Made by a program: the position numbers and the translations under genes. The notes below the pieces were generated by a model. The model saw only the letters and a list, made by a program, of their open reading frames with translations, had not been told where the DNA came from and did not search any database. A stretch of DNA of 64,000 nt from assembly GCA_029204225.1 (NCBI GenBank), contig CM055112.1:26674118-26738117 (forward strand). Reading direction: 5' to 3'. Below are positions 27,154 through 62,058 of this stretch, piece by piece (position 1 is the stretch's first letter; each line of letters begins with the position of its first letter). Source of the DNA: Diphasiastrum complanatum (lineage: Eukaryota; Streptophyta; Lycopodiopsida; Lycopodiales; Lycopodiaceae).

Positions 27154-27263
27154 AGCCATGCACTGCCCCACATGTCTCAATAGGAGTCTTTGGGTCCTCT
27201 CAAGATTATTAGATACAAACTGGCCTTGACATGAAATTAAATTGATGCATAATTCAGTGTTTT

Positions 27264-27783
27264 TTAATCACTTGCAAGATGCCATAAAATTTGAAACGTG
27301 CCACAGTTTGGCACAAATATTTTGTTTCCACCCATGTGCCCTTCAATAATCTTCGCATAAGTTGTTGTCGAAAAAATCCACGACAAGATAGCATGGTCTT
27401 CTTTTAAAACCTGAACATTGACATTAGCAAACTTAGGGAATAAATAAATCATAGCATTCTGGTAAACAATAATAAATAAAATTGAAATATACCTGAAATG
27501 CTGCTAACCACCATATTTCATTCTCTGATTGAACACTAAATGATGAATCCTCTGCAACATTTTCAATATTTTTTAATGCTTTGTTCATAAAGATGATATT
27601 TACCCATTCCAATTTTTGTCCCTTAACAATTTCAGACTCATCAAGTTTAATAGCCAATATTAAGTTTCCATGGACTTCTCCTTCAACTATTTTGTAATTC
27701 TTTCTTATAGGTCTCATTACTCTCACTAGCTTTGGTGGTACAATATGAAGATCAAACTTTTCCATTATTTCAAAATTGGACAA
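27264..27783 (-). pseudogene. E2 transposase-like gene fragment, two exons
   Basis: Two minus-strand frames match consecutive parts of the E1 transposase-like protein. The first (27783-27493) ends IKLDESEIVKGQKLE...FSVQSENEIWWLAAFQ, against E1 IKLDEAEIVKGHKLE...FSVQSENHIWWIAAFE. The second (27410-27264) has VLKEDHAILSWIF, AKIIEG and WHLASD followed by a stop, against E1 VPKESHDVLEWLF, SKIIHA, WHLAAD. Between them lies a clean phase-0 GT-AG intron (27411-27492, donor CAG/GTATAT, acceptor TTCAG/GTT) that E1 lacks. The Asp just before the stop aligns with the proposed first catalytic Asp of E1. Everything downstream is missing. Confidence 0.75.
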
Positions 27784-27877
27784 ACTAAATCATGTAATGA
27801 GAAAAATGATTCACACAAAACGTCAACAAGCATGTAGATCATTAAGCAATAGCAATGGATGTTATATAATCTACCTT

Positions 27878-31845: not shown

Positions 31846-32378
31846 TAAACAGATTGAGGTACTACAGGTTTTGAAGTAAATTTAGCATGATTTGTAGAGG
31901 TTGTTCAATCCAACCGTAACATTTCAAAGAATCTCATGGCATCTGTTCACAGCACACACATTTCAGAAAGTGATCTCTCTCTCTCTCACACACACGCACA
32001 CATTCCGCTGTCATTGTAACAGGTCACAGACACAGTAGCAGCACACACGAGCAGACTAGAACTATCATGGAGGAAGCAGTTCATGGAGGATAGTATTTGC
32101 AATATTGATGATACGAACGTTAGCAGCATTGCGACGATTCCTTGACGAATGGTCGTTTGATTTTCTTGAGATCTTAGATGGAGGTCTGAGATGTTGATAT
32201 TTGCACCGATATTGGTTCAGTGCAGGTTCCAAACTCATAAGATCTGGAGCTTGAATAGTAGGTCCAGTAATCTTCATCATCCACGATTGTTGAGATCTTT
32301 CATGAGTAGTAATTGCTGCAGATCGCATGCCAACATCAGTTTCAATAGGCCCATGAAACTCAGGAGGCGTAGTGGATG
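31846..32378. other. no gene seen
   Basis: No convincing ORF; a short CT/CA tract near 31975-32000. Confidence 0.4.
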
Positions 32379-32465
32379 CTTCTTGGTTTCCAAGGGGAGG
32401 CTCGAACCTAAGACCAAAGAAACTTTGGATGTCAAGCTAACCAACTAAGCCAACCCCATTGGCTG
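32379..32465 (-). repeat. tRNA-derived SINE, copy 1
   Basis: The reverse complement matches 35108-35196 nearly throughout, including GTTGGCTTAGTTGG (A-box-like) and GGTTCGAGCC (B-box). See the second copy. Confidence 0.65.
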
Positions 32466-33651: not shown

Positions 33652-35107
<1,456 letters not shown>

Positions 35108-35196
35108 GCCAACGGGGTTGGCTCAGTTGGTTGGCTTGGCATCCAAAGTTTCTTTGGTCCCAGGTTCGAGCCTCCCCTTGGAAACCAAGAAGCATA
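35108..35196 (+). repeat. tRNA-derived SINE, copy 2
   Basis: TGGCTCAGTTGG at 35119-35130 fits the RNA polymerase III A-box and GGTTCGAGCC at 35163-35172 the B-box, 32 bp apart. GGGG at the start can pair with CCCC after the B-box, like an acceptor stem, but the remaining stem pairs are poor and no clear anticodon arm forms, so a working tRNA is unlikely. A second dispersed copy (32379-32465, minus) with the same downstream CTTGGAAACCAAGAAGCAT argues for a SINE. Confidence 0.7.
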
Positions 35197-35598: not shown

Positions 35599-35874
35599 TT
35601 GACAAGAAAATCTATTGAATACATTATGATGAACAATAGGAGCTCTAATATTAAGTGCAAAATTACAGAGTCTTTGATGGTGGACATTCAGAAAATTTTA
35701 GATCAGACTATAGTCCAAGGTGCCGATGATTTTGTTGGTATTGGCAGAGAAGCATATGCAACAATATTTCAGCTATTAGAGAAGCTTTTAAGAAAGTTTG
35801 AACTAAAAAAAGTCCCTATCCCAAGGTTATATCACTTGAAAAAAGACAAACAAGTTAAACATAGGAATGCATAA
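35599..35874 (+). CDS. unrecognised ORF, 91 codons
   Basis: Charged, helix-prone sequence (MVDIQKILDQTIVQGADDFV, ATIFQLLEKLLRKFELKK). The stop codon lies in the left arm of a perfect hairpin (35850-35908), so the C-terminus looks artificial. Possibly an exon or relic; no family recognised. Confidence 0.25.
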   Translation: MTRKSIEYIMMNNRSSNIKCKITESLMVDIQKILDQTIVQGADDFVGIGREAYATIFQLLEKLLRKFELKKVPIPRLYHLKKDKQVKHRNA

Positions 35875-35908
35875 GATGTTAACTTATGCATTCCTATGTT
35901 TAACTTGT
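35850..35908. repeat. perfect 26-bp inverted repeat, 7-bp loop
   Basis: Arms 35850-35875 and 35883-35908 are exact reverse complements (left arm starts ACAAGTTAAACATAGG), loop ATGTTAA. No mismatch, so the inversion is probably recent. Confidence 0.95.
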
Positions 35909-37532: not shown

Positions 37533-37571
37533 TGCATTAGGGCCCTTTTTGGACTCAAACAGGGCCTCTTC
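37533..37571 (+). repeat. E1 left terminal inverted repeat
   Basis: Starts TGCATTAGGGCCCTTTTTGG; identical to the reverse complement of 50918-50956 except at one base. It contains an internal palindrome (GGCCCTTTTTG against CAAACAGGGCC). Weaker similarity (CTAAT.ATAATTA..TTAGTG.TAAT) continues a little further in. Confidence 0.85.
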
Positions 37572-38034
37572 CTTGCCTAAACAAGTTTTCTAATCATAAT
37601 TAATTTAGTGCTAATCAATCCTACGTGGCACCTTTACCTTGGGTTACCATACAAGGTGAGCAAGAGTTAAGGCCTAAATGTAGGTCTCCTTTTCATAGAC
37701 TATTGTAGGTTATTTGCATAGACTATAATAGGCAAGTAATAGGTAAGTTACAAATTACAACTAGAGTAGGGTTAGTATAGGACGACCTTTCATTGTCCTA
37801 ACTACAATAGGACCCTAGGGATGGAAACTAGTATATGCCTAATAAAGCTTATATCATTGTTAGTTCACATTGAGCTTTGACACCATTTGATTAAGGTATA
37901 TTGTAATGTTCTACATAGATTCTTTTGGGAAATTTCATTACATGTATCACTTACATGTGAAGTTAGAGAAGGATTATGCGACCACCAAAGCTGCATGGGG
38001 TGTTAACTTAAATCCGTATGACATGCATTGTTAG
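37572..38034 (+). other. E1 left subterminal region
   Basis: Leader of the transposase-like gene. A short open stretch starting at an ATG near 37942 (MYHLHVKLEKDYATTKAAWG) could be a first exon, but its splice donor is not clear. Confidence 0.35.
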
Positions 38035-40623
38035 AGATTAGAAGGAAAAAAACATATTGACCTATGGGTAAGAGGTGATTTATACCCTCATAATCCACTG
38101 GTAGATGCTCCTCCTAAATTTTCTAATGTACATAGTTTGTTAAGGTTCGTTGGGGATGGTCGGAATGGACTGCTTGGCTATTGTCAAGCAATGGATTCTC
38201 GAAGAATCCAAGCTGAGACATTGGCAAATACGACATTCATTCGTATCTTGAGTATGAATGACAATTTAAAGTCATTGCATGGAATAAATATGAAATTGGA
38301 GCAGGAGATAAATGGTTTGAAAATAGAGCTTGCCAGTTCTATCGCAAAAATTGAAGAATTGCAATCTTCAATCAGTATATTTCAGAGGACAATATATGGC
38401 TTACAACGAAAGCGTAGAGTCTCGATGGATCAGCAAGCAGAAAATGAAAACCCTAAGAGACACAAACTAGAAGCTTTGGCACCAGGTGGTGGTGCCAGTA
38501 AAAGACGTATGAGGGACACAAAAGAGTTCTTGAGAAAGACGGTTGGAAAAGATTTTATTACCGAAAAATATATGAAACATTTTTTGAAGGGTAAAGATTT
38601 GATTAAGATTGTGGAAGATGAAACAAGTGATTCAATTCACTTGAGAATTGCAAAAAAGCTAGTCGACAAGTTCAAGCCAAATCCAAATGTTAAAGAGATA
38701 GTGTACGCATGTGACCAAGGAGGTGTGAGTCGCAAGGGGTATAGAGCTTTGAAGAAGTATATGAAACGCTCTGACAAAATTGGGTTAAAACGCCATCAAA
38801 TAATACCTACTTATAAACTTGTTGAATCCGCCAAACGAGAATGCAATTCGATTTTGCTCTCTGAATTAGGAGAGTTTCAACATATTGAGGATTCTTTTAC
38901 AGTAACCAATAAGAAGAAAGGACCTCCGACAAAACAATTATCATCAAGGCAATAATATATTCTTAGATCTGGAAAAGGTCCAAGCGATGATGATCCGACA
39001 TTACGAAGTTAGAACAAATGGTAAGAACATTTATTGTGGATTTCGGTTTTCAATTGTATGCTTTTCTTCAACTAATATGTTTTTGTAATGAAATTTCTGT
39101 TTTACAGATTTGCAGAGGTAAAGTTATATTTGTTATTAAGTTGGACGAAGCAGAAATCGTAAAAGGGCATAAACTTGAACGTGTCACAATCACCTTGATG
39201 AATTGTGAATTGCAACAGTTTGGCGGAAGTTATTGTAAAGAATTTAGCGTGCAATCTGAAAACCACATATGGTGGATAGCTGCATTTGAAGTTCCTAAGG
39301 AGTCTCACGACGTACTGGAGTGGCTATTTGAAAAATGTAGTATATCTAAGATAATACATGCACAAAATGAAGGCAAATTGCTCAATGTTGAAGGAGAAAG
39401 CTTTGTTGTAGAATGGCACCTAGCTGCTGATTTGAAGACTTTGAAATGCATGTACGGTTCTGGTCTCGGTGCAAATGCAAAGAATTTTTGTATATATTAT
39501 ATGTTTGAATCTGGGCAGAACAAAAGCATTTTGAATTGCAACCAACGTCTTGCACCAAATAGGCACAATCTAGACAAAGCTTGGAAACTTGTGTTGAACA
39601 TTCCTCTCGAAAGAGTCCATTTTTGCACAATGCATGGTGAATTACGAATACTGGACAAATTATTATTTTTGCATTGTTGTTGCGCATGGAACATGCAGCC
39701 CAAATCAAGAGCAGATGTTAGCATTAAAAATCTAGAGATAATTTTATCCGATATGGGATTGCACGGGGGCCACGTGAGTCTTACCAAAGACGTTGAGATG
39801 AGTGGAAAAATGCAAGATCTTCCAGCAAAAGTTTCAATGGGTGGTGCAAAAGTGAGACACCTATTGTCAAATCATACTGCACGTGAAAGCAGTGTTGAAT
39901 GGGAGTACTGGAAGAAAATATGTCAATGCACAACAAATATGGGCTCAGATCCTCGCATGGCAAGTACACGTGCTAAGGTTTGGCAAGCATTTGATGTCTT
40001 GTCACAAACTATCAACAAAAAGATTGTGAGAGATGAAGATTTGGATAGATACGCAAGAGAAGTCAAAATATTTACTGAATTGATGATCGATGCATGGGGA
40101 GAAACACACGTAACTCACTATATGGTATGTGTGTCTCATATTTTTTACTTTTGTATTTATGTATTTGTAAAGATTTAAATTAATATGAAATTTCTATTAA
40201 TAGCACATCTTCTATGCTCATGGACCTTGGTTTATGAAAACCTATGGATCATTAACTATTTGGAATACGCAAGGCATGGAAAAGAGTCATTACAGGGCAA
40301 AGGCTACATATTTCAAAAATTCACGGCATGGCGGAGGAAAGGGTCGTAGCAATGCATTGGTTGAGATATTCCAATGGTTTTACAGAGGAGTTTTGGGCCG
40401 AGGACACTTTCAAAACACAAGAACTGAAGAGTTGTGTTCAATGATCCCCAATTCAAATTCAGTCAGAAAGACAGCATGGCAATCCTCTAATGCTAGAACA
40501 AGGCATCAAGAATGGAGGATGTCTAGAGTCCGATTTGGAAAGAGATGGATGCCGAGGACACCAACATCCAATGTTTTGGAAAACAGCGCTAGAGAAGCTA
40601 CGGAAACTGATGAGATGGAATAG
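38035..40623 (+). CDS. DDE-transposase-like gene, spliced
   Basis: First clear exon opens at an acceptor at 38034 and encodes HIDLWVRGDLYP...GLLGYCQ, a Leu/Glu-rich coiled coil and a basic region to about 38955. Next block 38906-39020 (LEKVQAMMIRHYEVRTN) is in another frame, so an intron or frameshift lies near 38900-38968. Intron 39021-39117 (phase 1) restores GKVIFVIKLDEAEIVKG, agreeing with E2. Intron 40125-40203 (phase 0) joins THYM to HIFYAHGPWFM. Candidate catalytic residues: Asp in WHLAADLKTLK (39429) and Glu in QGMEKSH (40279), with HFCTMHGELRILDKLLFLH and an HGGGKGRSN motif between or after. I take it for a nuclear DDE-type transposase of an unnamed family. The catalytic assignment is inference; ATG and N-terminal exon unknown. 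Confidence 0.65.
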
Positions 40624-40764: not shown

Positions 40765-41474
40765 AGTGGGGTTTTCATTTTGTTGTCACTTCTTGCTTTG
40801 TTGAAATTTCTTTCCTCGTAATTTAGCTTGTCTTGTTCAATTAGACTACTAGTTTGCTGGTCAATTAGTGTTCTTAGTTGCATAACAATGTCGTCCTCTA
40901 AAATAGAGTTGGCCAATCTGCTAGCCCCCACAGAGTTTTTAGATTAGTTAGATCGTATTTATTGTATGTTTACCGGTAGAATAGACACGCTTGCCACTCT
41001 ACGGGCTAATACAGATGCATTCACGTACGTGAGTGAGTATATAGATGAAACTTTGAAGCCTTATGCCCTACAAATTCCTGACTCCACTATCATGTGGATT
41101 CCATATAACTTGCTTAGTTATATACGAAAAGGAGATAGACCCTTTATCGCTCGTCTCAACAGATTTATTAGTCACTTGGGTAACGATCATTACTTGGAGC
41201 TGACCAAGGATCAGCTGAAAACTTTTGATCTTAAAAGTGTAGGAAAGAAGTTTCTATCCGGTGAGATTACTGTTATTTTTTTTCTTAATGAATTTCCAGC
41301 GACTGTGGCTAGCAACAAACACAATCCTAGTGAGCAGGTGAACGAGATGAACGACCTAGGTGAAGAGGAAGATTTATCTGCAGAGCACGAAGCAGTCTTG
41401 GTTGCGCAAGAGGCAATAAGTCCTAAATATTCTTTGATGGTAAAAGCAAAATTAGACAAATATCTTGAACCTGG

Positions 41475-42283
41475 TGTTGAATTTCACACGTGTGGATTGT
41501 CCACTACATGTACTTGTGATCTCCTAAGGTGTGTAGATGCACCAAGATCAAGACTAGATTGAGATTCAAGATCTATCTTTGATTCTATGGCAAAAACACA
41601 CTACTACATGCATTCAATCACTTCCAACTCTCACTCACACGTGTGGGAAGTGTTCCAAAAGTATTCTAAGTAAAAACAAGCTGCTCTCCTCGGGTAGAGA
41701 GAGAAAAACCATCATGAGCTCTCGGGTAGAGAGAGAAAGCTAGAAATTCAATGACACTCAAAATCCACTCAATCTCAAAATCAATTAGATCCAAAAGGAG
41801 GAGTACAATGATACTAATAGATTCATGAGCTACCACTATGCTTAACTATGATTGGATCACACTTTGCCACTTCTTAATCCTATTGGACCATTGATCCATG
41901 CACCTCTAAATTCTATTGGACTATATTCAAGCACACTTCAATTTTCTATTGGACCTCACAAGGTTCCACCTCTAAATCCTATTGGACCTCTTAAGCTTCA
42001 TCAAACAAAAGCATGACACTTGTCTACACTCTAATTGGCACAAGTTTGGCTCAATATTGGCATTACAAGTGGAAATGGATAATTTGCCATCTATGCCAAA
42101 TTTGACCCTATCAACATCCTACACCTAAATGCTTGACTATGAAATTCTATGAGACCCCTATATCAAACATTTTGATTTACTTTACAATTGTCCACACGTG
42201 GGAACATCCTCCACACATGTGAGATTCACTTACAAACTTCTATCATAAAAAATATTAAGCTAGATTTTTGCCAATTTCTCACA
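41475..42283 (-). repeat. 3' LTR of copia C (minus sense)
   Basis: 809 bp. Sense start TGTGAGAAATTGGC at 42283. Contains CACACGTGTG at 41485-41494 and 41636-41645. The polypurine tract adjoins it on the interior side. Confidence 0.94.
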
Positions 42284-42409
42284 CTCCTCCTCAAAAAATA
42301 GCTTGGAAAGGTACTAGATCACTTGAGAAGTTTGTAAATCTTTTTGAGTGGATCATTTGGTATGCATAAGAAGTGAAGATCAGCCAAGGGATCCATCATA
42401 GCAGCACCC

Positions 42410-44983
42410 TTACCATATCCATGATAAGATCTCTTTGGTAGAGATCTCTTGCCAATGCCTTTGAAGAGTGCTCCACCAATATGCCACTATTATCATGGGC
42501 TTCCTCCATGCTTGATGATGATCTTTGCCTTGAAAGTTCCACTTGCATGATGGATGCACCATAAATAGAGAAATATGAGGCTTCCAAGCCTCATAAGGAT
42601 CATGGAGATCAAGATCATAAGATGTGAAACAATGATGATTATCAAGATTATGCTTTCTAGCTTGACTAGTCCACATACAATGAACTATATCCATGATGGA
42701 TCTAATCTTGATATCAAAGACTATCTTGATCTTTTTTAGGCTGGTTACTCTCTCAAGGATGTAAGTGTCCACTTTGGATGCTTCACTTAATCTCAAGAGG
42801 AGTTTACAATTTGCCTCAAAACATGTGAAAACATGATTTTCAAAAAAGTGAGTACCAAGCTCAATCTTGTTCTTACTAGAACCAAGAGCATACTTTTGAC
42901 AATACAATATCTTGCTTTTAAAAAGTATTGGAAACACATCTAAGTCAATAATGACAAGAAACATGTCCATACCATAAGCATCATACAAAACTAGTATAGC
43001 TTTTCTTGAACTTTGAGATCCAAAAAATTCAATGAAGCAAGATAGCATTTCAAGCAAAGGAAGAGAAGCATATATGAATGTGTTGTAGTAGATACCACAT
43101 GAAAGATGCCCCTCTTTGCCATGTAAGATGAGCCATAAAGACTCAGCCATGCATCTTGAAGATCTTCTTGAAATCATATGAATAAGAAACTCCTCCTCAC
43201 ACATTGGCCCCATCATAACTTGAATACCTTCAAAAAGGATAATTTGTGATGCTTCTTGAGAAGCCTTGATCTCGGCCACTTCCAAGATTGAATCTTCATG
43301 CAATATGACATCTCTATTCACCATCACATTTGAAATAGAGAGTGTAAAGACACTAAAGGTCTCCTTGATGGATGAGTATCCAATCATGATCCATGAGCTT
43401 GGATCATCCTTCCTTCTTGTTTCCAAGGGAATATGTGCAAAGCAAGCACTACCAAGTTCACTAAGGTGATCAACCTTAGGCTTCATCTTGAATAAAACTT
43501 CATATGGTGCTATTCCTTCAAGAGCTCCAATACTCCTAAAAGCTTTGATCTTCAATGAGAATTTCTTCTCAACATATGCTTTGAATAATAAGGAATAATC
43601 ATACACCATAATACTTGAAGAGAGAAGATATGTGCATCTTGTGTAATTTTCCTCCTTTGAAATATTGGAAATATAAGAAACATCAAGAGAGTTTGCACTC
43701 TCACTTGGATCCAATTTGTAGATGCCTTCAAATCTTGATCCATATGCAAGGATCTCACCATCCTTCTTAATCACACAATTGTCAATATTGAAATTGACAT
43801 CAAAGCCACTATCAAGAAGTTGGCCAACACTTAAGATGTTCTTTGTAAGCTTTGGGACAAAAAGAACATTGTTGAGAAAGAGATCTTTAGAAGATGCAAG
43901 CTTCAAGGGAATAATCCCTACTCCTTCAATATTGCACTCATGCTTACTTGCAAAGTATATGGTCTTCTTGACTCCATCATAAGGCATAATAGATGAAAAA
44001 AAGTGCTTGGAGCCACACATATGTGAAGATGCTCCACTATCAATATACCATGAGTCATCCTTGTTGAAGGTGGAAGAGGAGAAGCTTGATGCCATAAGAG
44101 AGCCTTCTCCATCACTTGCAATATAGTCTTCTTTCTCATTGGTGATGTTGGCTTGATTGAGTTGATTCTTCTTCTTGAAGCAATTGGTGGCATAATGGCC
44201 TTTCTTGCCACAATAAAAGCACTTGATCATCTTCTTCTTGAGATTTGAATTATAAGCATGAGAGGTATCCTCCTCCTCTCCATCTTGGTCTTTAGCTTTG
44301 TCATTAGAGAAATGATGGTGTTGCTTCTTACTCCTCTCTTTGTGCTTGGCAAATAGAACTTTGCCATCATCATGATTGAGTGATAGCTTGTCCATCCTCA
44401 AGAGTTTGTACTCTTGTCTTGATTCTTCAGAAATAAGCACACTTTGAAGGGCCTCCAAACTTGGTAGCTCCTCCTTAATAGCATAGGGCTGGACAAGGTT
44501 GTCATATTCATCTCTCAAGCCATTGAGAATGACTTGGACTAGCTCACTTTGATTGATTGAGTCACCAATACATGCAAGCTCCCTATGAATATCCTTGACC
44601 CTCAAAACATAATTAGATGCACTCTCGTCACTCTTTTGACTACTTTGGAATATTTGATTTCTAAGAGTGAGGAGCCTAGAGGTGTTCTTAGCCTCATAGA
44701 TGGACTTGAGACAATCCCAAGCTTCCTTGGATGTAGAACAATCACCAATCTCCCTCAATATCTCATTAGAGACATTCATCTTAATGTAGTGGAGAGCCAT
44801 CCTAGCTCTCTTCTTGTATTTTTGTACTTCTTGAAGGACTTGAGGCTCCTCCTCAATCCCAAGTACAATGTCCATCACATCTTGGAGTATCAAGATGGAC
44901 TCCATCCTCAATTTCCATATTGAATAATTGGAAGTAGACAATCTCTCACTTGGTTGCAACAAGTATGAACTCATTGAAGTCAT
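42410..44983 (-). CDS. copia C Gag-protease polyprotein with non-RT C-terminus
   Basis: 857 codons without a stop, starting MTSMSSYLLQPSERLSTSNY at 44983. Residues 1-200 are copia Gag (UBN2-type: WKLRMESILILQDVMDIVLG, SKEAWDCLKSIYEA). The zinc knuckle is CFYCGKKGHYATNC at about 259-272; the aspartic protease is WYIDSGASSHMCGS at about 314-327. A residual integrase C-terminal part follows (APYEVLFKMKPKV, RRKDDPSSWIMIGYSS) without the catalytic D-D-E core. The last 270 residues or so match no copia domain I know (RSSRCMAESLWLILHGKEGH; FIEFFGSQSSRKAILVLYDA). Likely a structural polyprotein mobilised in trans; the C-terminal part may be read-through of non-coding sequence or a real module. Confidence 0.85.
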   Translation of the reverse strand: MTSMSSYLLQPSERLSTSNYSIWKLRMESILILQDVMDIVLGIEEEPQVLQEVQKYKKRARMALHYIKMNVSNEILREIGDCSTSKEAWDCLKSIYEAKNTSRLLTLRNQIFQSSQKSDESASNYVLRVKDIHRELACIGDSINQSELVQVILNGLRDEYDNLVQPYAIKEELPSLEALQSVLISEESRQEYKLLRMDKLSLNHDDGKVLFAKHKERSKKQHHHFSNDKAKDQDGEEEDTSHAYNSNLKKKMIKCFYCGKKGHYATNCFKKKNQLNQANITNEKEDYIASDGEGSLMASSFSSSTFNKDDSWYIDSGASSHMCGSKHFFSSIMPYDGVKKTIYFASKHECNIEGVGIIPLKLASSKDLFLNNVLFVPKLTKNILSVGQLLDSGFDVNFNIDNCVIKKDGEILAYGSRFEGIYKLDPSESANSLDVSYISNISKEENYTRCTYLLSSSIMVYDYSLLFKAYVEKKFSLKIKAFRSIGALEGIAPYEVLFKMKPKVDHLSELGSACFAHIPLETRRKDDPSSWIMIGYSSIKETFSVFTLSISNVMVNRDVILHEDSILEVAEIKASQEASQIILFEGIQVMMGPMCEEEFLIHMISRRSSRCMAESLWLILHGKEGHLSCGIYYNTFIYASLPLLEMLSCFIEFFGSQSSRKAILVLYDAYGMDMFLVIIDLDVFPILFKSKILYCQKYALGSSKNKIELGTHFFENHVFTCFEANCKLLLRLSEASKVDTYILERVTSLKKIKIVFDIKIRSIMDIVHCMWTSQARKHNLDNHHCFTSYDLDLHDPYEAWKPHISLFMVHPSCKWNFQGKDHHQAWRKPMIIVAYWWSTLQRHWQEISTKEILSWIW

Positions 44984-45728
44984 GTAAAGTGGAGATAAAT
45001 AAAAGTGATGAACAAAAAATGTTGCTTCTCTCTCACTATAGGATCCAATAATGGTGTGCTACCATCTCCTATGCAAGATCTTGCAACAAACTGTGAGATG
45101 ATTCTCACTAGCTATCTCAATCTCTCCAAAACTAGATCTACTTCACATCAAATGATGGAGTATGGGCAAAGTTAGGATCAAACACTCTTAGCACGTGTGA
45201 AATACACTAAGAAACCAAATTTGACTCAAATACAATGATATTGCATGAAACAAAATGGCTAAGATCTCAAAACAGTGCCTAGATCACATATAGATGAGAT
45301 TGGTAAGCATTCAACTGTGATTTTGGATCAAACAAGCAATCTTTTGACCAAACCAAATGTGTCCACCCAGGTCTAGGTGCCCTACCTAACCCTCTTCAAA
45401 AGCTTATAACTTTTGATTGGCTCAACCAAATGGAATGAAACTGATTGCATTAGAAACTAGACAAAAATAGCTTCAAAACAAGCTATCTAGCAAGATTTTT
45501 GGATCAAACATGAAAGAGAACTCCCAAACTGAAATTGGATGTTCCTCACACGTGTCTGAGCACCTGATTCCGCACAGTACCAGGTCAGACCCAATCAATG
45601 TCCTTTTGATCTCTTTTGATCCAAAATTGAACAAGATAGCTAGGAAAATGGGCCTTGACAATTTGTAGCTCAAGATTGATGAATAGTTTCTACTCAAATG
45701 GATCAAAATGCATGGTAACCTTAGGTAG

Positions 45729-45740
45729 GCTCTGATACCA
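45729..45740 (-). other. copia C primer-binding site
   Basis: GCTCTGATACCA on the plus strand, exact complement of TGGTATCAGAGC, adjoining the 5' LTR. Confidence 0.93.
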
Positions 45741-46551
45741 TGTTGAATTTCACACGTGTGGATTGTCCACTACATGTACTTGTGATCTCCTAAGGTGTGT
45801 AGATGCACCAAGATCAAGACTAGATTGAGATTCAAGATCTATCTTTGATTCTATGGCAAAAACACACTACTACATGCATTCAATCACTTCCAACTCTCAC
45901 TCACACGTGTGGGAAGTGTTCCAAAAGTATTCTAAGTAGAAACAAGCTGCTCTCCTCTGGTAGAGAGAGAAAAACCATCATGAGCTCTCGGGTAGAGAGA
46001 GAAAGCTAGAAATTCAATGACACTCAAAATCCACTCAATCTCAAAATCAATTAGATCCAAAAGGAGGAGTACAATGATACTAATAGATTCATGAGCTACC
46101 ACTATGCTTAACTATGATTGGATCACACTTTGCCATCTCTTAATCCTATTGGACCATTGATCCATGCACCTCTAAATTCTATTGGACTATATTCAAGCAC
46201 ACCTCAATTTTCTATTGGACCTCACAAGGTTCCACCTCTAAATCCTATTGGACCTCTTAAGCTTCATCAAACAAAAGCATGACACTTGTCTACACTCTAA
46301 TTGGCACAAGTTTGGCTCAATATTGGCATTACAAGTGGAAATGGATAATTTGCCATCTATGCAAATTTGACCCTACTATCAACATCCTACACCTAAATGC
46401 TTGACTATGAAATTCTATGAGACCCCTATATCAAACATTTTGATTTACTTTACAATTGTCCACACGTGGGAACATCCTCCACACATGTGAGATTCACTTA
46501 CAAACTTCTATCATAAAAAATACCAAGCTAGATTTTTGCCAATTTCTCACA
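45741..46551 (-). repeat. 5' LTR of copia C (minus sense)
   Basis: 811 bp, paired with 41475-42283. The right flank is gene 2 of E1. Confidence 0.94.
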
Positions 46552-46766
46552 CTTATGAGGATGAGGGAGATGCTCCTAAATTAGCATTAGAAATGTTAAA
46601 ACCAGTACTGTCATTAGAGAAGCGATCAGAGAAGCTGAAGTCCTCTCTGAAGGAAATGGATCAAAATAAAGATTTTGTCATTTTTTTTCTTGAGGACTCT
46701 CCTAATTCTCTGTTGTAATTATATGATGTGCTTATTCATTGAATTTAGAATTTAAATTTTTTTTCT

Positions 46767-47116: not shown

Positions 47117-48367
47117 TTAATTGCGCTCTCTCCTTAGCCTTCTAGCTAGGTGGAGATCCTTCGGGAGTATTGTGACTCTCTTCCCGTGCACTGCACACAA
47201 AAATGAGTCCTCAAAGAGCTGCATTAGGTATATTTCCGCAGACTCTTGTATTGCAGACACCGCATCTGCCGTAACTCTGTTTCCCAAGGAAAATTCATCG
47301 ACTATTTCTTTTACAAGCCTCACAAAAGGGGCCCTAGGGATCAAAAATTTTACGGACTTCTGATAGCTCTGTATATCCTGGAGCCACTTTGCGATCTTGC
47401 GCTGTCTACGCAATCGATGAGGTGGTGGCTGCATCCTGCGGAGCTCCTTTCCAGCCCATGGTGCTGCATGAGGGGCCGACCTACCCTTGCCACGCTCTAC
47501 GGTCCTACTTGGGCCAACTGCGGCAGAACTTGGAGGCGGTGGAGGTGGTGGAGGTGGAGGTGGTGGTGGTGGAGGTGGTGGAGGTGGTGGTGGTGGAGGT
47601 GGTGGTGGTGGAGGTGTTGGTGGAGGAGGTGGTGGAAGTGGTGGGGGCGGAGGCGGTGGAGGTGGAGGTGGTGGAGGCGATGTTGGCGGTGTGGGCAGTG
47701 GTGATGGCTGCTGAGCTGCAGGGTTCCGTCGCTTTCATGTAGAGCCTGCCTTGCGAGGATTCTTTCTCTTTCGCTCGTGTGCTCCTCTCTCTGACCATCT
47801 ATGGGTCGCCTTCTGCTTCATCCTTGTTGTGTGCGACATCGGGGTGCCCTCATCAGAACCACCCACCAACAACGACATCATCGGACCCATCACCGGGCCG
47901 TGACTTGGAGGTGACACGGTGGGTGTGGTGTCCCCCGATATGCCTAAATTTGATGTGTCCATGCCCATTGCTGGTGGAAATGGGTCGAAGAAAGAATCAT
48001 TCAGAACCGGCAACTCACCCGATGCCGCAAGCTCCTCATCTAGGAACTTCATTGTTTTCTCCCGCTCAGTTGCCGTCGGGGAAGGGCTTTTTTCTCGTGG
48101 TGGTTGTTGCTGCTGCTGGTCCTCCTGCTGCTGTTGGTCTTCTTGCTGCTGCTGCTCAGTCTGGTCCTCCTGTGTAGCTGCTGTATGGGCCATGTCCTCC
48201 TCAACTTCACGCTGAGTGGCCGGATCTTCCTGAGACGCTATAGGGCTACGACTCCTACTCCTGCTTCTGCTCTCCCGTCTCTCTCTCTCATCGAGGGTGG
48301 CTAGTGCATCCCTATGGAGCAATGCAGTCACTCTGGGATCTCTAGCCGTTTGTTTCGTCCGTGCCAT
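47117..48367 (-). CDS. histone H3-like fusion protein, one in-frame TGA
   Basis: 416 codons plus stop in a single frame. It begins MARTKQTARD at 48367, identical to histone H3 residues 1-8 with Asp instead of Lys9. Then come an RS repeat (about residues 33-45), a Gln-rich stretch (about 75-95), an acidic/Ser linker, TGA at position 211 (47735-47737), a proline-rich tract coded by CCACCACCT repeats (about 225-285), and an H3 histone fold (about 330-416): YQKS, LIPRAPFVRLVKEI, SAIQESAEIYLMQLFEDSF, LCAVHGKRVTILPKDLHLAR. Loop 1 has normal H3 length, unlike CENP-A/CENH3. Canonical H3 is about 136 residues, so the excess is linker. Expected to enter nucleosomes or mimic the H3 tail in the nucleus. 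The TGA may be a CGA mutation. A start 4 codons upstream (48379) is possible but MARTK fits. Confidence 0.88.
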
Positions 48368-48493: not shown

Positions 48494-48501
48494 CTTATAT
48501 A
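48494..48501 (-). promoter_or_regulatory. TATA box of the H3-like gene
   Basis: TATATAAG on the minus strand, about 127 bp upstream of the MARTK start codon, followed by GGGTGC. Confidence 0.7.
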
Positions 48502-48983
48502 GTGAAGGGTTCTATTTCTAGTAAGTGCCCCTATAAAAGTTTTGGCCTCTTTTCCAAATATAGTATGTTCTTGTCTATGCTCATGAGTAAAAATCCTAAT
48601 CGCCAGTTAGCGGAAACCTTCAAAGAAAACCAGTAATAGTATTAAAATGCATATCACTAAACGATTTAAACCTTAACAAGTTTCAACCTTGGACATCCAC
48701 AAATGTAGTAACAGGCATATAAAATGTGACAACGCAAAATTAAAGTCAAAACATAACCAAATATATTAGAATAGAGTCAAAACGCAACCAACTAATTGTG
48801 TTTTCTATTTTTCATTAGATTAAATCCTTTATTCCCATTGGACTCCTAATGTCCCTGTTTGTAAAAATGAAACACATTCATGATCTTTTTTGGCTCGTCT
48901 CCGTATATGCAAAACCAAACACAAAGTTAATAATCCTATATTTATTCAACATTACTATTTAAAATTCAGGAATCTGATGGAAA
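48502..48983. other. E1 intergenic region
   Basis: AT-rich region between the H3-like promoter and the 3' end of gene 4. No ORF. A good donor (AAAAT/GTGAGT) at the end of gene 4 means a further 3' exon of gene 4 could lie here. Confidence 0.4.
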
Positions 48984-50071
48984 TTAGGGACTCACATTTT
49001 GTCCATTACGAGTAAAGACAAAATCTACTGGCACATCAACAAAAGTCAATCCAAGCATATGCCGAAGATCTTCTAGGCTGCACTCCTTATCTATTTGAAT
49101 TTCTCGTATTTCATCATGGGGCAAATGTATGGATATCTCCACTTCTTGTTGATTCGTCTCCGCATCCAGAGGGTCCCATCGGCCATGACCAAACTTATAT
49201 CACCTATAGATAAAACTTAAGGAGCATGTTTGACGTGAAATATGATACCTTATGGTCATTGTTTCACAAGAGAGCTTACACCTTATTAAATCTCCTTTAT
49301 GCTCCATTTCCTTTGAATCCCATGCGACAAATATGTTATCCAATAGTGATGATTCTGTTGCTTTCCATGCCCACATCGTGTTTGTTTTTCTAAAGGGGAC
49401 CGCCTTAAATATGGCAACAAATACGGTGATTGGCACAGAGATGCTAGTGTAGACTCGTTTGGATCCGAATGTTGGCTTCATATTACTAGTAATCTCTTTG
49501 AGAAGTTGCCTCTGCATTAATTCAATAGTCAGTTAGTCAACATATGGCCACTCGTGAGAATCGATCGCAGGCTCAGAAATTGGTGCTAATTTGCCTTGGC
49601 CAAAGTTTTTTTTTGGAACTTCGTACATGTGATCGTAAAAGAAAATGCCCATTTTGATCAGGGCAGAGGATGCCAACCCACCATATATTAGTTCTCCATA
49701 TTTGGCGTGTATGGCGGAGAATTTTCCAGTGAAGGACTTCACGTTTTGCCAGTCGAAGCTATTTGAAGGAAAGACATCTGCACCAGGCATTAATGCAACA
49801 TTATTATCCATAACAATGACATAATAATAATTCAAACATAATAGTTAACACAAGAATAAAAGAGGTGAGACCTACAATGTGACTGCATGGTTCTATCAGC
49901 AACAACCACATCCAATAAAATATCTCGACGCATGTATACGTGTTGCACATTTGCAAGGTATTCGCCGTTTTGGTCGATCTTGAATTCGTGGATCCTTCCT
50001 TTCCAATGGTAGTCTTGGTTGTTTCGCTTCCTCTTTGCAACCTTGTGAGTTCCTTTGCCCGATGGTTGCAT
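48984..50071 (-). pseudogene. E1 gene 4, unknown spliced protein with in-frame stops
   Basis: Exon 1 (50071-49876) starts MQPSGKGTHKVAKRKRNNQD and ends RTMQSH. A GT-AG intron of 98 bp (49778-49875, phase 1) leads to exon 2 (FPSNSFDWQNVKSFTGKFSA, YGGLASSALIKMGIFFYDHM). From 49777 to the stop at 48984 the frame is open except for TAA at 49533-49535 and TGA at 49200-49202. Each stop could instead lie in a tiny GT-AG intron (30 and about 45 nt), shorter than usual for plants. The C-terminal part (EVEISIHLPHDEIREIQIDK, SLEDLRHMLGL, DFVFTRNGQN) recalls a ubiquitin-like beta-grasp domain, a weak impression only. Basic N-terminus; no family recognised. Its 5' end faces the right terminal repeat. Confidence 0.55.
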
Positions 50072-50917: not shown

Positions 50918-50956
50918 GAAGAGGCCCTTTTTGAGTCCAAAAAGGGCCCTAATGCA
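50918..50956 (-). repeat. E1 right terminal inverted repeat
   Basis: Reverse complement starts TGCATTAGGGCCCTTTTTGG; 38 of 39 bases match 37533-37571. The inner edge continues with ACTAATTATAATTAGTG, itself a palindrome. Confidence 0.85.
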
Positions 50957-50999
50957 TTAGCCAATTCGTGCTTTAGAATAGCTTGTTTTTCAAAGCAAT

Positions 51000-52062: not shown

Positions 52063-54741
52063 TGTAGAATTAAAATCATGAGAGCTAGATTACATCACAC
52101 ATTGCATGGTCAATAATTATAAATAAACTTTCTTTCTTGAATTACTTATCGTAATGTCTAACACTACATTTTCTTTTCGTCCAACATATCTTGAGAGATC
52201 ATACAACATTCTTTGCAAATACATATGGAAGTCTGAGTGTCTAGTCATGGAATATCACAAGCACGAGTAAGATTCCATCACTGATATGGAGGAACCAGTG
52301 ACAAAAGAAGCTACATTTCTCAATTATTTTTTCTATCGAAGAGTTCAAGTTCGACAAATAACCAAATCTTCATATTAGAAGAAGTTTAGAAAGTCATGCA
52401 AGTTTATATAACAAGAAAATAGCTAGAAATACTCACAAAAGACTTTGTAGTCTTTTTTTATGTAAAAATTACATTGTTGATAATTTTAAAAAAAATCATT
52501 TTAGTTCATCAGAATTCTCATCATGTCCAATTGTTGTGTTATCATGACAAAATTCTCTACTTGAAAATGGATCTAGGAGATGAGGATTGTCTTGATTACC
52601 ATTTAATTGTATATATGAACCATATAATGAATAACAAGATAGAAACATTCTCTTGTCCATAGCCTAAAATATTCAAAACATGAGATCTCTGAATGACAAT
52701 GGATTTATTTGCTCTAATAAACTTATGCCCTCCTAAGTAATGTGACAATGCCTTTACGACCATAATCAATGTCTCCCCAATTGGATTGAACTTACATATT
52801 TTATTTTATTTATAAATGCTTGAGGTAATGGCCCAGTTCATTGTCCCCATGGAATGAGTTTCAGTGCTTTTCGATACTTCCTCAATGAACATTAAATTCA
52901 TCTATAATAAGAGTAGTTCGCATACATCGGGAAGAGGTATCAAGTAACCATGTTTATAAAGAATTCAACATTACATGTAATTTCAAAATAAGAAAAAAAT
53001 ATATATTGGGCTTTATGAAGACAAGCAAAATATCACCACTAAGAAATTCTTCATCTTTTTCATATTCGATACCATGCACCATATCATGACTAGTCTCAAA
53101 AGTTGTGATATTCAAGAATTTCAAAACGGTGCTAGATAGGAGACATAATATTTCTTCTTCACGATATTCAAAAAAATTACATAGGTCTGTAGTAGTAATA
53201 TATACATCATTATTGACATAGTATTTTGACATATCGAACAAGTCCCTAGATTGTACATCAGAAGTGTCTTTATGTACAGAAAAATGGGAACCAATAAAAG
53301 TCTATCTCAGTTTCTTTGTGTCTACATTATTGATGTCATAATCTTTCTCAAGGGTGTCTATAAGAAAGTGGCTTACGTCTATGTGAGACGAATGAGAAAT
53401 AAAGGTGGATGTCTCAAACTATTTGAAGTTCAATGACTCCAAATCTTTTGGAGTTTGAAGAATATAACAAAAAAAGACAAACAAACTTTTTTTGGTATTT
53501 GAGATACCTATAATTTCATATGCAAATACTATAGGATGTGGAGTTTTTAAATTGTCCAAAAAGCTTGGTATACATCCTCTCTAATCTTAGTCTGTGACAA
53601 GGAGCAAAATGCACAGGTCACTAAAGTGCATGAAGGAGAGAGCACCTTACGATATTATAGGAATAGTCAAAGCATCTATAAATCTAATATAATGGTCATA
53701 AGAAGCCTCAACATTCTACTGAGCTATTTAAAAATATATACAAAAGGTCGAAATAAAGATTTGAAATAATTGACATTATTTTTTATATCAAATTCAAGAA
53801 GAAATGAGGATAGGGCAATGTCTCTATTGAAATGTGACAAATGTGCCATTTTAAATAGCTTCTATCACAAAATGAGAGCAAATATTGCTTTTGTACACAT
53901 GAGATATCTCAAGTTGATATATGATATTTGTTTGGAGTACAACATTCTCAATCAAGTGTAAATAATTGCATCATTTATCGTCAAGATTAGAAAATTCTAG
54001 ATACTTTTCCAATTCATAACGAGAGTCATTGGAAGAAATCAAAGGTGCCATATAAAGTATGAAGGAATTGTCATATCATACCATGATTTCTACATTTTTA
54101 TAAGTATATGCATTTGATTGACATAATATAATATTTCGTCTATATGTTGTGTACTATGTTGCATACCTTTATAGTAAGTAGCTCACCCATGGAATATAGA
54201 TTTTAATATGGTTTTTTTTTTCTCTTGTAGAAATTTGGCCATAGATATGAGCTCTTTTTTGAACTTTGATTGTAGGTGTCTTGTGATATCTATCAATATG
54301 AGATGGCATGCAAAAGGAACATGTGAGGAGGGTATATGGTGCCACCTAATAAATTGCCTTGCTCAGAAGCATGATGGACTCCAAATGGTCCAAGTTTTGT
54401 TATAGAGTCCATTTTGAGATTTAAGTAATCATCGGAATACATGGCCAAGATTGATAATGAATTATAGCATGCCACCTTGTTTTATACCAAAAAGTTTTTA
54501 ATATTGCTCTTTGATTATTTTGCACCAAAGTAAAGCTTGAAAATATTAATGTCTACTTATAGGTTGTGTGGACTCACTCTAAACTCATTTGAGTTTTTAT
54601 GTTATTAGCTAAATCAATCAACAATAATTGCATGAAGTGTGATGTTTGATATTTTTTGTGAATGAGTCAAATCATTATTGATCAATTGGAGTATTTGTGG
54701 CATAGTTTATTGGCTTATGAGGTTACCAAAGATTTGTATCA
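52063..54741. other. no gene recognised
   Basis: 2.7 kb of AT-rich sequence. A minus frame at 52954-53241 (MFDMSKYYVNNDVYITTTDL, 95 codons) is the longest; it has mixed composition and no known motif. Nothing else stands out. Confidence 0.4.
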
Positions 54742-59784: not shown

Positions 59785-61311
59785 GGGTTGTGTTATGATT
59801 TGGTGTCTTGGGTCTAGGTCCAACCATCCTACCATTTACACAAGCCATCATTGAGCAATGAGTGATTTGACAACTACTATGTGGAGTGTTTAGTTGGCTT
59901 AGAGAAGGTTAGCTAACATGAAAGCCATAGCCGGCCAACAAGTAGCTTTCACCTGTTTGGTGTTTTGTGGTGTTGTGTCTCATCATTGCACAAGGTGAGT
60001 TATTTTTTTATTGATTTGTTGCTCGTATTGATCTTTGTGATTTTTTTGTTTAAATTACTGGTTTTTTTTTGGTGCAATTGTTGCTAAACTATTTTGGTAG
60101 AACGATTTGGCTACAAATCTTGCAAGGATATTTAAGGTTGGGAATGAGCTAGAGACTAGAAAGGTGGATACTAGCTAAGATGGCGAAGTTGGGAACATTA
60201 GCTATTGGAGTTTGTTGAAGTATTGTGCAAGGTAGTTAATTCAGAATTGCCATTTTACAAGTGGATGAAGGGGATTGTGGTTATGATATTTTGTGCTTAG
60301 TTTACATAGATGGCAACGTAATTATAGTTCTAAGATGTTTAATTTTGATTTAGGATTTATAAAATCGATGAAATGCGTAGTGATTTTATGTTTGTTGAAC
60401 ATAATCCACTTTTGTGATGTTCCCATCCACAACTTCAAGAATAATATGATTAAGAAACTTCAGTAAGTATAACCTAGATAGGGATTTAGTACAAAATAAG
60501 TCTTGAAATTTGAACAATGGGGCTTGCTTCAAGAGTAGATCCTCCAAAATGGATGCAACTAGAAAATGATTTGTAGAGAGCTTTGTGCTATTTTAATCAT
60601 GTGCATAGGTTGACATTTTGGGTGACTATGGCAAAGCACGAGTATAACACTTCCTGAGAGACAATGAGAGCTTTTGTTACTGGTTGCAATAAGAATAGGA
60701 ATGAAGATCTTACTAGCAATGCAAACAATTGCGACACATTGATCGAAGATTTTCTTCATAGGTTTCATGGTCGATGAGGCTTGGATAGTTGTCAAGATTG
60801 TGACGATCCACAAGCTCCTATGATTGGAAAGGAGAGATGACATTTTTTCACTTCATGGACAATGTCAGAATACACACCAAAAAAGCATATCAGCGAGGGT
60901 GAAATGTAGACAACATCGATGATATAGATGATATATATAACAAAACAATTCATTACTTTGGGCCAAGACTTTCGTTGTTGACCTGAAAGGTTTTATGATT
61001 ATAATCATAGCTACAAATGTGAAATTTTCTTGGTGGCATCCAACAATACATGCATTTTCCACTTATGGGTCTATATTTTGCAATTGATTCATTGTCATTA
61101 GGGGATATTAGAACTCAAAAAGATGCACATAACTACGTCAACAATAAACAAGTTCAAATAAACAATGTGGAATGAATGACAATCATACTTGAAAGCTCTA
61201 ATTCTTTTCTTTTGATTGCCCTTGTATAAGGATAAGTCATCAATATTCTTCTTTGATATCCTTTTTCTAACATGTTTTGGTTTGAGCTCCGAAGACTAGT
61301 GATTATAGTAT
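59783..61311. other. no gene recognised
   Basis: 1.5 kb. It may contain decayed interior of E3 but I could not align any part to E1. Confidence 0.35.
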
Positions 61312-62058
61312 TCAGTTCTGATATAGATTCCTTGAGTGCAAAGATTTCATTTCTAGTGTGCTACACATAATATTGTTGCAATTGTTGACAAGGATACTGT
61401 AATTGTTGATTAGCATACAGTAATTTTGCATTATGCATGCCAAAATCTCACAACCTTTGACAATATCCAAGTAATCTGCTATGCCCTTCACATACAACTA
61501 TGAGGAAATGACTAATAGACTTAAAATTGGGACGTAAACTGATACTTGGATCTTTACGATAAACTTTTCCATCTACCCACAAATCTACATGCTTATGATT
61601 ATTTTTTCTCAAATATTCAACTAGTGCAGTAGCATTTTCTACAACTATTAAAACAAAAAATTGATCATGGAAAAGATTGATCAAAAGATGTCAAAAGAAT
61701 GATCATCATTACTTCGTATTGGCTATGTCGAGCTCATAATTCTTTTGCCTCATATTTTACTACGAGCATACAAAGATTTCAAAAGTGCTCATAGTGCTCC
61801 TGCTACATATTTTGCAACAAGCATATCAAGATTTCAAGTTGGCAGAGCATGCAAAGCAATTTTGGCTTACGTTATTACAAAGCACACTTAATTAATTAAT
61901 GTATAAAGTAACTATACTAGTTAGAATGCGAGCAATACCGGAAACTGAAAAATGGCAATCAAATGTTACCGGTTTCCATTCTCTCTCTATGTAACCTCTC
62001 TCTAAAATCAAATTTCTTAAAGGGCCCATTTTGAGTCCATATTTTCCCTAATGTGAAA
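61312..62058 (-). mobile_element. E3: broken DNA transposon of the E1 family
   Basis: Minus-sense fragment: terminus 61916-62058 (CTAGTTAGA, ATACCGGAAACT, CTCTCTCT, AGGGCCCATTTTGAGTCCA, TTTTCCCTAATGTGA) shared with E2 and, in its GGGCCC-GAGTCCA core, with E1; then the 5' part of a transposase-like gene. The opposite terminus was not located. Confidence 0.65.
61448..61684 (-). pseudogene. E3 transposase-like gene, 5' fragment
   Basis: Minus frame with HKHVDLWVDGKVYRKDPS and HSRLLGYCQ, matching E1 HIDLWVRGDLYPHNP (from 38053) and NGLLGYCQ in the same order and at the same distance. An acceptor-like TTGTAG just before the exon sits at the place where E1 also has an acceptor. After the stop at 61448 the frame continues with broken Leu/Gln-rich sequence to about 61312, comparable to the E1 coiled-coil region. 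No catalytic part remains. Confidence 0.65.

Follow-up and report, generated by a model that had tools for sequence, protein, structure and literature searches.

The histone H3-like gene on the minus strand at positions 47117–48367 of the window (the whole stretch of 64,000 nucleotides analysed here) is cargo of a DNA transposon, and about this we have hardly any doubt. The original prediction had proposed this from the window alone, and copies beside the same terminal inverted repeats (TIRs) elsewhere in the genome carry the gene in the same place and orientation. The element is more unusual than that prediction knew, because its transposase resembles RAG1, the recombinase of vertebrate antibody genes. 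As the best explanation of the whole we lean, by no means strongly, towards a transposon-owned H3 derivative that would act as a K9-less, anti-silencing component of nucleosomes.

The reading frame opens with MARTKQTARDPRV... and closes with ...LHLARRLRRERN (translation of the window, minus strand). It contains a single internal stop, a TGA at codon 211, as compared to 19 and 22 stops in the remaining two frames of the same strand. The frame starts, as had been claimed, with the exact H3 tail MARTKQTAR, continues with an RS-, Gln- and Pro-rich linker and ends with a diverged but complete H3 fold; the fold had been expected about 330 residues after the tail and starts close to that, around residue 315. 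More specifically, the protein consists of ARTKQTAR, i.e. the first eight residues of H3, a new linker of approximately 300 residues, much of which is a Pro-rich microsatellite, and the fold. From the full H3 tail with K4, K9, K14, K27 and K36 the first eight residues alone are kept, and ARKS is absent throughout the window copy.

The fold part matches Pfam Histone (7.1e-29) and H3 chains of solved structures in the PDB (1.8e-27). With Arabidopsis H3.1 it shares 53 of 98 residues (54%), and the 45 positions that differ from canonical H3 have accumulated with no frameshift. Identity to Arabidopsis H3.1 is 17/29 in helix 2, 5/6 in loop 2 and 1/7 in loop 1; loop 1 aligns to H3.1 gap-free and is of canonical H3 length. 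Structure prediction, suggested beforehand as a check, returned a helical fold, with a pLDDT of only 71. Among 635 Foldseek rows the 50 best are all nucleosome or histone-octamer chains with 43–55% identity, which we take to be H3. Pfam, PDB and Foldseek agree on an H3-type histone fold.

The 39-bp inverted repeats reported around the gene are real and match each other at 38 of 39 positions, but they do not close around the gene; what they delimit is a 13.4-kb unit that comprises four genes and, nested in it, a Copia retrotransposon. The left repeat lies at the transposase end (37533–37571, plus strand; its conserved terminus begins at CA, 37535) and the right one at the gene-D end (50918–50956, minus strand). 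The neighbouring transposase-like gene is also confirmed, since it matches relatives over 37945–40572 in tblastn. On the plus strand it is followed by ORF-B (40888–41474), shortened by the Copia or a rearrangement, and then comes the Copia itself (41475–46553; LTRs 41475–42285 and 45741–46553, 98.6% identical). Gene D (48987–50068, minus strand), probably of at least two exons, lies beyond the H3-like gene. Damage is spread over the window copy: the transposase has one stop, a frame change and a Tyr at a zinc Cys position, ORF-B and the H3-like gene each carry a single stop, and gene D carries two, both in frame. What the window contains is a decayed element from a high-copy DNA transposon family, and we infer a plant host from the Copia element, matches in ferns and the size of the genome.

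Neither ORF-B nor gene D had a significant Pfam or PDB match in sequence searches, and no family was recognised for either. ORF-B reaches at least 300 residues in copy L018 (2812–3750). Gene D, a conserved gene of the element, occupies 997–1854 in L049, and its C-terminal part in L027 matches PB1 only at E 0.22. A TATA-like box, CTATATAAG (48494–48502, minus strand), precedes the ATG of the H3-like gene (48367) by about 135 bp and is statistically weak. There is a similar box 132 bp upstream of ORF-B, and the alignment score is reached in 35 of 1000 shuffles. We considered a promoter common to ORF-B and the H3-like gene and found the case weak: CTATATAAG is expected 0.49 times per window and 20 of 200 shuffles reach two.

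The survey for further copies covered the genome to which the window belongs (1.745 Gb, 5,176 contigs), with the H3-like fold as query. Scoring of the best 150 among 6,211 first-look candidates gave 150 matches, the window included, mostly 80–93% identical to the window fold. Twenty of these places, hand-picked mostly for long open frames, were fetched with 9.9 kb each, and all 20 contain at least one other gene of the element. The transposase is found in 17/20 and ORF-B in 16/20, always on the strand opposite to the H3-like gene (16/16); gene D is present in 18/20, always on the same strand (18/18). A piece of gene D also occurs in 11 of 20 further places, seen as stretches of 2.0–2.6 kb. Paired TIRs surround the H3-like gene together with other element genes in L014, L018, L021 and L023 (6.4–8.3 kb); most of the transposase is gone from L014, and ORF-B is not seen in L021. 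Bystander status had been tied beforehand to repeat copies that never carry the gene, or to its occurrence only as an ordinary host locus, and the survey shows neither.

The terminal 20-mer, with up to 2 mismatches, occurs 1,037 and 1,051 times in the genome, while the reversed control gives 0 and 0. Three units were picked by their TIRs alone. The full-length one (L049, 8.1 kb) has all four genes, the H3-like gene being matched only in part, and two shortened ones (L050 and L051, 2.66 and 1.14 kb) have no H3-like gene, so the family includes internally deleted, MITE-like members. Some copies have outer flanks in common, namely L014 with L022 and L026 with the window (50957–50976). Part of the copy number therefore reflects duplication of larger segments and not transposition.

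Assignment of the transposase is based on fold and residue spacing because sequence alone gives little: Pfam RAG1 is found in 1 of 70 transposase homologs (E 0.0019), and the transposase profile finds no chain in the PDB. The predicted fold matches RAG1/Transib, with the P element (6.5), Hermes (5.2) and others ranking lower; the match spans model residues 72–531 only, and the part with the catalytic E is in a stretch with pLDDT below 50. In mouse RAG1 the catalytic triad is D600, D708 and E962, according to an excerpt of PMC4914335. All three D-D-E residues are present in the window transposase, which was traced by tblastn of relatives as an N-terminal part (37945–38955, plus strand, with the stop near 38033 and the frame change near 38925), a catalytic exon (39108–40124, plus strand, with D at 39144 and 39429) and a last exon (40204–40623, plus strand, with E at 40279). 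In the 70-row alignment the first D is kept in 51/51 and the second in 66/66 letters, and E in 6 of the 8 rows with a letter. Equivalence to the RAG1 triad is judged by order and spacing, with direct alignment to RAG1 for the E region only (E 0.013). The zinc site of RAG1, CxxC plus HxxxxH (C727, C730, H937 and H942), also has its counterpart: Cys is found in 65/67 and 64/66 letters and His in 7/21 and 7/13, where we infer that the other letters come from frames running into the intron. The window copy has the first Cys (39489) and both His (40204 and 40219), and the second Cys position is Tyr (39498). We accordingly assign the transposase to a family with the RAG1/Transib fold.

The termini are of another type. 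Transib TIRs start with a CAC-type heptamer. Among 25 TIR hits, some of them duplicates, C and A precede TTAGGG in 23/25 and 25/25 and TTAGGG itself is present in 24/25, i.e. the terminus is CA followed by TTAGGG and not a CAC-type heptamer. Target-site duplication of Transib is about 5 bp, as stated in an excerpt of PMC8355894. The eight TIR pairs show no consistent 5-bp duplication, some of these units being duplicated or rearranged; in L051 it is 3 bp (AAT).

Comparison of the copies shows which parts of the H3-like protein are kept. The start pattern was found in 10 of 20 full-size loci, of which 2 are open end to end and 8 are broken; the other 10 have no exact start pattern and are outside this count. 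The open copies run from MARTKQTAR to the end in L009 (412 aa, Pfam Histone 6.7e-29) and L025 (394 aa). The N-terminal half could be aligned in 38 copies, 2 without and 36 with the start. The lysine equivalent to H3K4 is present in all 36 started rows, and MARTKQTAR is exact in 20 of them. Changes at R2, T3, T6 and A7 look like scattered decay, and in the rows shown position 9 is occupied by D or G and in no case by K. In the fold, D106, C110, H113, K115, R116, T118, D123 and L126 are kept in 42/42 copies, K56 in 41/41 and R69 in 40/41; since resemblance to the window fold was the criterion by which the copies were chosen, these figures overstate conservation. R49, R63 and R72 are replaced in 41/41, so DNA binding may be altered. 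Among what the fold keeps are residues that serve H3–H3′ pairing, contact with H4 and the DNA-facing loop 2.

The original prediction had suggested that the gene could steer the element to certain chromatin, shield its DNA or compete with host readers of the H3 tail. Our own proposal for the role is as follows. The gene would be a long-resident, element-owned derivative of histone H3 whose product may pair with the H4 of the host and enter nucleosomes or H3–H4 complexes on or near the DNA of the element. Once incorporated, it would present H3K4 but neither H3K9 nor H3K27. H3K9me2 is the main transposon-silencing histone mark in plants. Chromatin of the element might then be unable to take this mark and stay open for expression of the transposase and for cutting. 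We put forward this K9-less-nucleosome mechanism tentatively, as it seems to us somewhat more apt to be wrong than right. The complete version, in which the element has its own H3 variant with K4 and without K9 or K27 that resists H3K9me2 and helps the RAG1-like enzyme to find open chromatin, appears doubtful.

The main rival to the anti-silencing mechanism is that the protein is a chromatin tether or a decoy. Its H3K4-type tip would recruit or titrate PHD-finger proteins and COMPASS, and the fold or linker may couple these H3K4 readers and writers to the transposase and so direct integration towards active chromatin. The restriction of the tail to the first eight residues, the K4 found in every started row and a long RS/Gln/Pro linker suitable for such a task all agree with this possibility. 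It would also mirror the vertebrate RAG system, where the PHD finger of RAG2 binds H3K4me3 (excerpt of PMC8355894). However, a conserved surface for H3–H3′ and H4 contact is superfluous for a decoy, and sequence searches recognised no RAG2-like or PHD domain in ORF-B or gene D. There is also an in-frame ATG four codons 5′ of MARTK (MLEE/MSEE-MARTK) in 3/3 copies whose frame start was read, the window included. Translation from this upstream ATG would leave ARTK without the free N-terminus required by H3K4 readers, which counts against the K9-less nucleosome as well; in our reading, the upstream ATG has a less favourable context than the ATG of MARTK. Altogether we regard the tether or decoy as rather unlikely.

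It could also be that an ancestral element captured a host H3 gene and that this gene has been copied since then without any use, as in Pack-type elements. That 8 of the 10 judged copies are broken, that stops are common to several copies at 8 sites and that so much of the linker is a Pro-rich microsatellite is what passive copying would leave behind. Pack-type capture gives recent, near-identical and varied host fragments. Here, by contrast, all 20 loci contain the same gene with the same neighbours, the identity to Arabidopsis H3.1 as reference is down to 53/98 with the frame of the fold intact, and two frames of 394–412 aa are still open.

Selection signals, which bear on the same question, are modest. 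For singletons, the ratio of nonsynonymous to synonymous variants relative to neutral expectation is 0.79 in the fold and 0.83 in the N-terminal half; for variants found in at least 3 copies it is 0.46 and 0.47, respectively. The difference between shared and singleton variants gives Fisher p 0.010 when pooled and p 0.14 for the fold alone, with copies treated as unrelated. In the N-terminal half 8 of 91 variants shared by at least 3 copies are stops (3.9% expected), indicating that some broken lineages have multiplied. None of the 59 shared variants in the fold is a stop, which, together with their fewer amino-acid changes than in singletons, speaks against passive copying. When neutral decay was simulated, starting from H3.1 and ending at the observed identity, 2.3 stops arose on average and none in 9% of cases, and substitutions as conservative as those observed were seen in 27 of 3,000 runs. 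Shared-variant ratios in the other genes range from 0.14 (D4) to 1.24 (catalytic exon of the transposase, 14 vs 4) with small counts, so by this measure the H3-like gene does not stand out. Taken together, the sequence comparisons make past constraint on the fold more likely but do not prove it. The gene probably had a function under selection in the past, and we consider purely passive capture improbable.

Still less credit can be given to a structural role in the transpososome, where histone-like pairing and wrapping would compact the ends of the element or protect the excised DNA. R116, V117 and T118 of loop 2 are kept in 40–42 of 42 copies and the gene is linked to that of the transposase, which would suit such a role; on the other hand, the exact H3K4 tip is left unexplained. 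Moreover, RAG1/Transib enzymes are known to function without any histone. A host H3-variant or CENH3 gene merely lying beside transposon debris can practically be dismissed: the window has the gene once, with no H3-like match at its four other transposase pieces, but against this stand 150/150 scored places in the genome, other element genes in 20/20 loci and a loop 1 of canonical H3 length that lacks the insertion present in P0008–P0010.

The element family and its H3-like protein share features with several known systems. RAG1, ProtoRAG and Transib elements have a CAC-type heptamer, while the termini here are CATTAGGGCCC...; the window family also differs from them in the lack of a consistent 5-bp target-site duplication in eight TIR pairs and in three extra genes, the H3-like one included, among which no RAG2-like gene was recognised. 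As of 2015, the transposase was the sole protein encoded by every known Transib transposon, and elements with RAG1 and RAG2 have been described (Kapitonov and Koonin, excerpt of PMC4411706). An excerpt of PMC9435367 reports 39 Transib-like proteins in plants, which likewise combine a plant host with a Transib-like transposase. Compared by description only, the window family possibly belongs to the same group; that excerpt mentions no accessory genes, whereas the window element has three.

The H3-like protein resembles canonical H3 and its variants in the complete fold, the tetramer residues and the first eight residues of the tail. It differs from canonical H3 in its 54% fold identity, a linker of some 300 residues, the absence of K9 and being encoded by a mobile element. 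CENH3 is likewise a diverged H3 with an altered tail, and its fold has a longer loop 1. The canonical tail tip, the canonical loop 1 aligned to H3.1 with no gap, the high copy number and the location in a transposon set our gene apart, and we rejected CENH3 identity. In the H3 tree (P0011 excluded before building) 10 of 11 inner branches are open and the H3-like gene is not placed. Other H3 folds with long unusual N-termini are P0014 and P0008–P0010, one of them from the fern Adiantum nelumboides. Pack-MULEs also have a host-derived gene inside a DNA transposon, in their case varied recent fragments as opposed to one fixed, long-diverged gene in 20 loci. Giant viruses and bracoviruses are similar in carrying a histone on a selfish element; here the carrier is a DNA transposon, and neither a capsid nor a polymerase gene was recognised in it. 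Relatives in viral contigs were considered and rejected, as none of the 18 and 7 pattern stretches was confirmed. The original prediction knew of no plant transposon with a gene for H3 tail plus fold. Searches among open-licence PMC papers for histone genes in transposons turned up no report of one in such an element, and a prior description elsewhere is possible.

Hosts silence transposons via marks on histone H3, and an H3 of its own would, if our reading is true, be a direct counter-move of the element. The element may bring along a chromatin protein of its own, and on the boldest reading it would have authored a histone code for itself, with its chromatin marked as active. A transposon H3 that combines the activating tip with loss of the main silencing site would amount to a natural experiment that separates the tail of H3 from its core. 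A multi-gene element of the RAG1 type, apparently from a plant, is also relevant to the way in which RAG-like enzymes became dependent on H3K4 marks. The genome has about two thousand termini and includes copies with open frames, which makes these ideas testable.

Regarding the history of the window itself, the Copia flanks differ (CCTGG/CTTAT) and show no target-site duplication. The near-duplicate copy L026, about 160 kb from the window and sharing its outer right flank, has no match to the Copia LTR. Relative to L026, the window has different sequence over about 0.8 kb, a stretch that starts inside ORF-B and runs past the end of this gene, and the Copia junctions are at 41420–41475 and 46553. 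We considered a junction of two elements at the Copia; the missing LTR match in L026 points to local rearrangement instead. Older pieces of RAG1-like transposase lie outside the unit at 35644–35907 (plus strand, best E 2e-6) and 52158–52271 (plus strand, E 8e-5). Their position on both sides in consistent order suggests that the unit was inserted in an older relative. Two more decayed copies of the transposase family are at 27204–27789 and 61229–61654, both on the minus strand. In addition, a pair of 89-nt inverted repeats (32376–32464 and 35107–35195), 93% complementary and 2.6 kb apart, possibly marks another small element.
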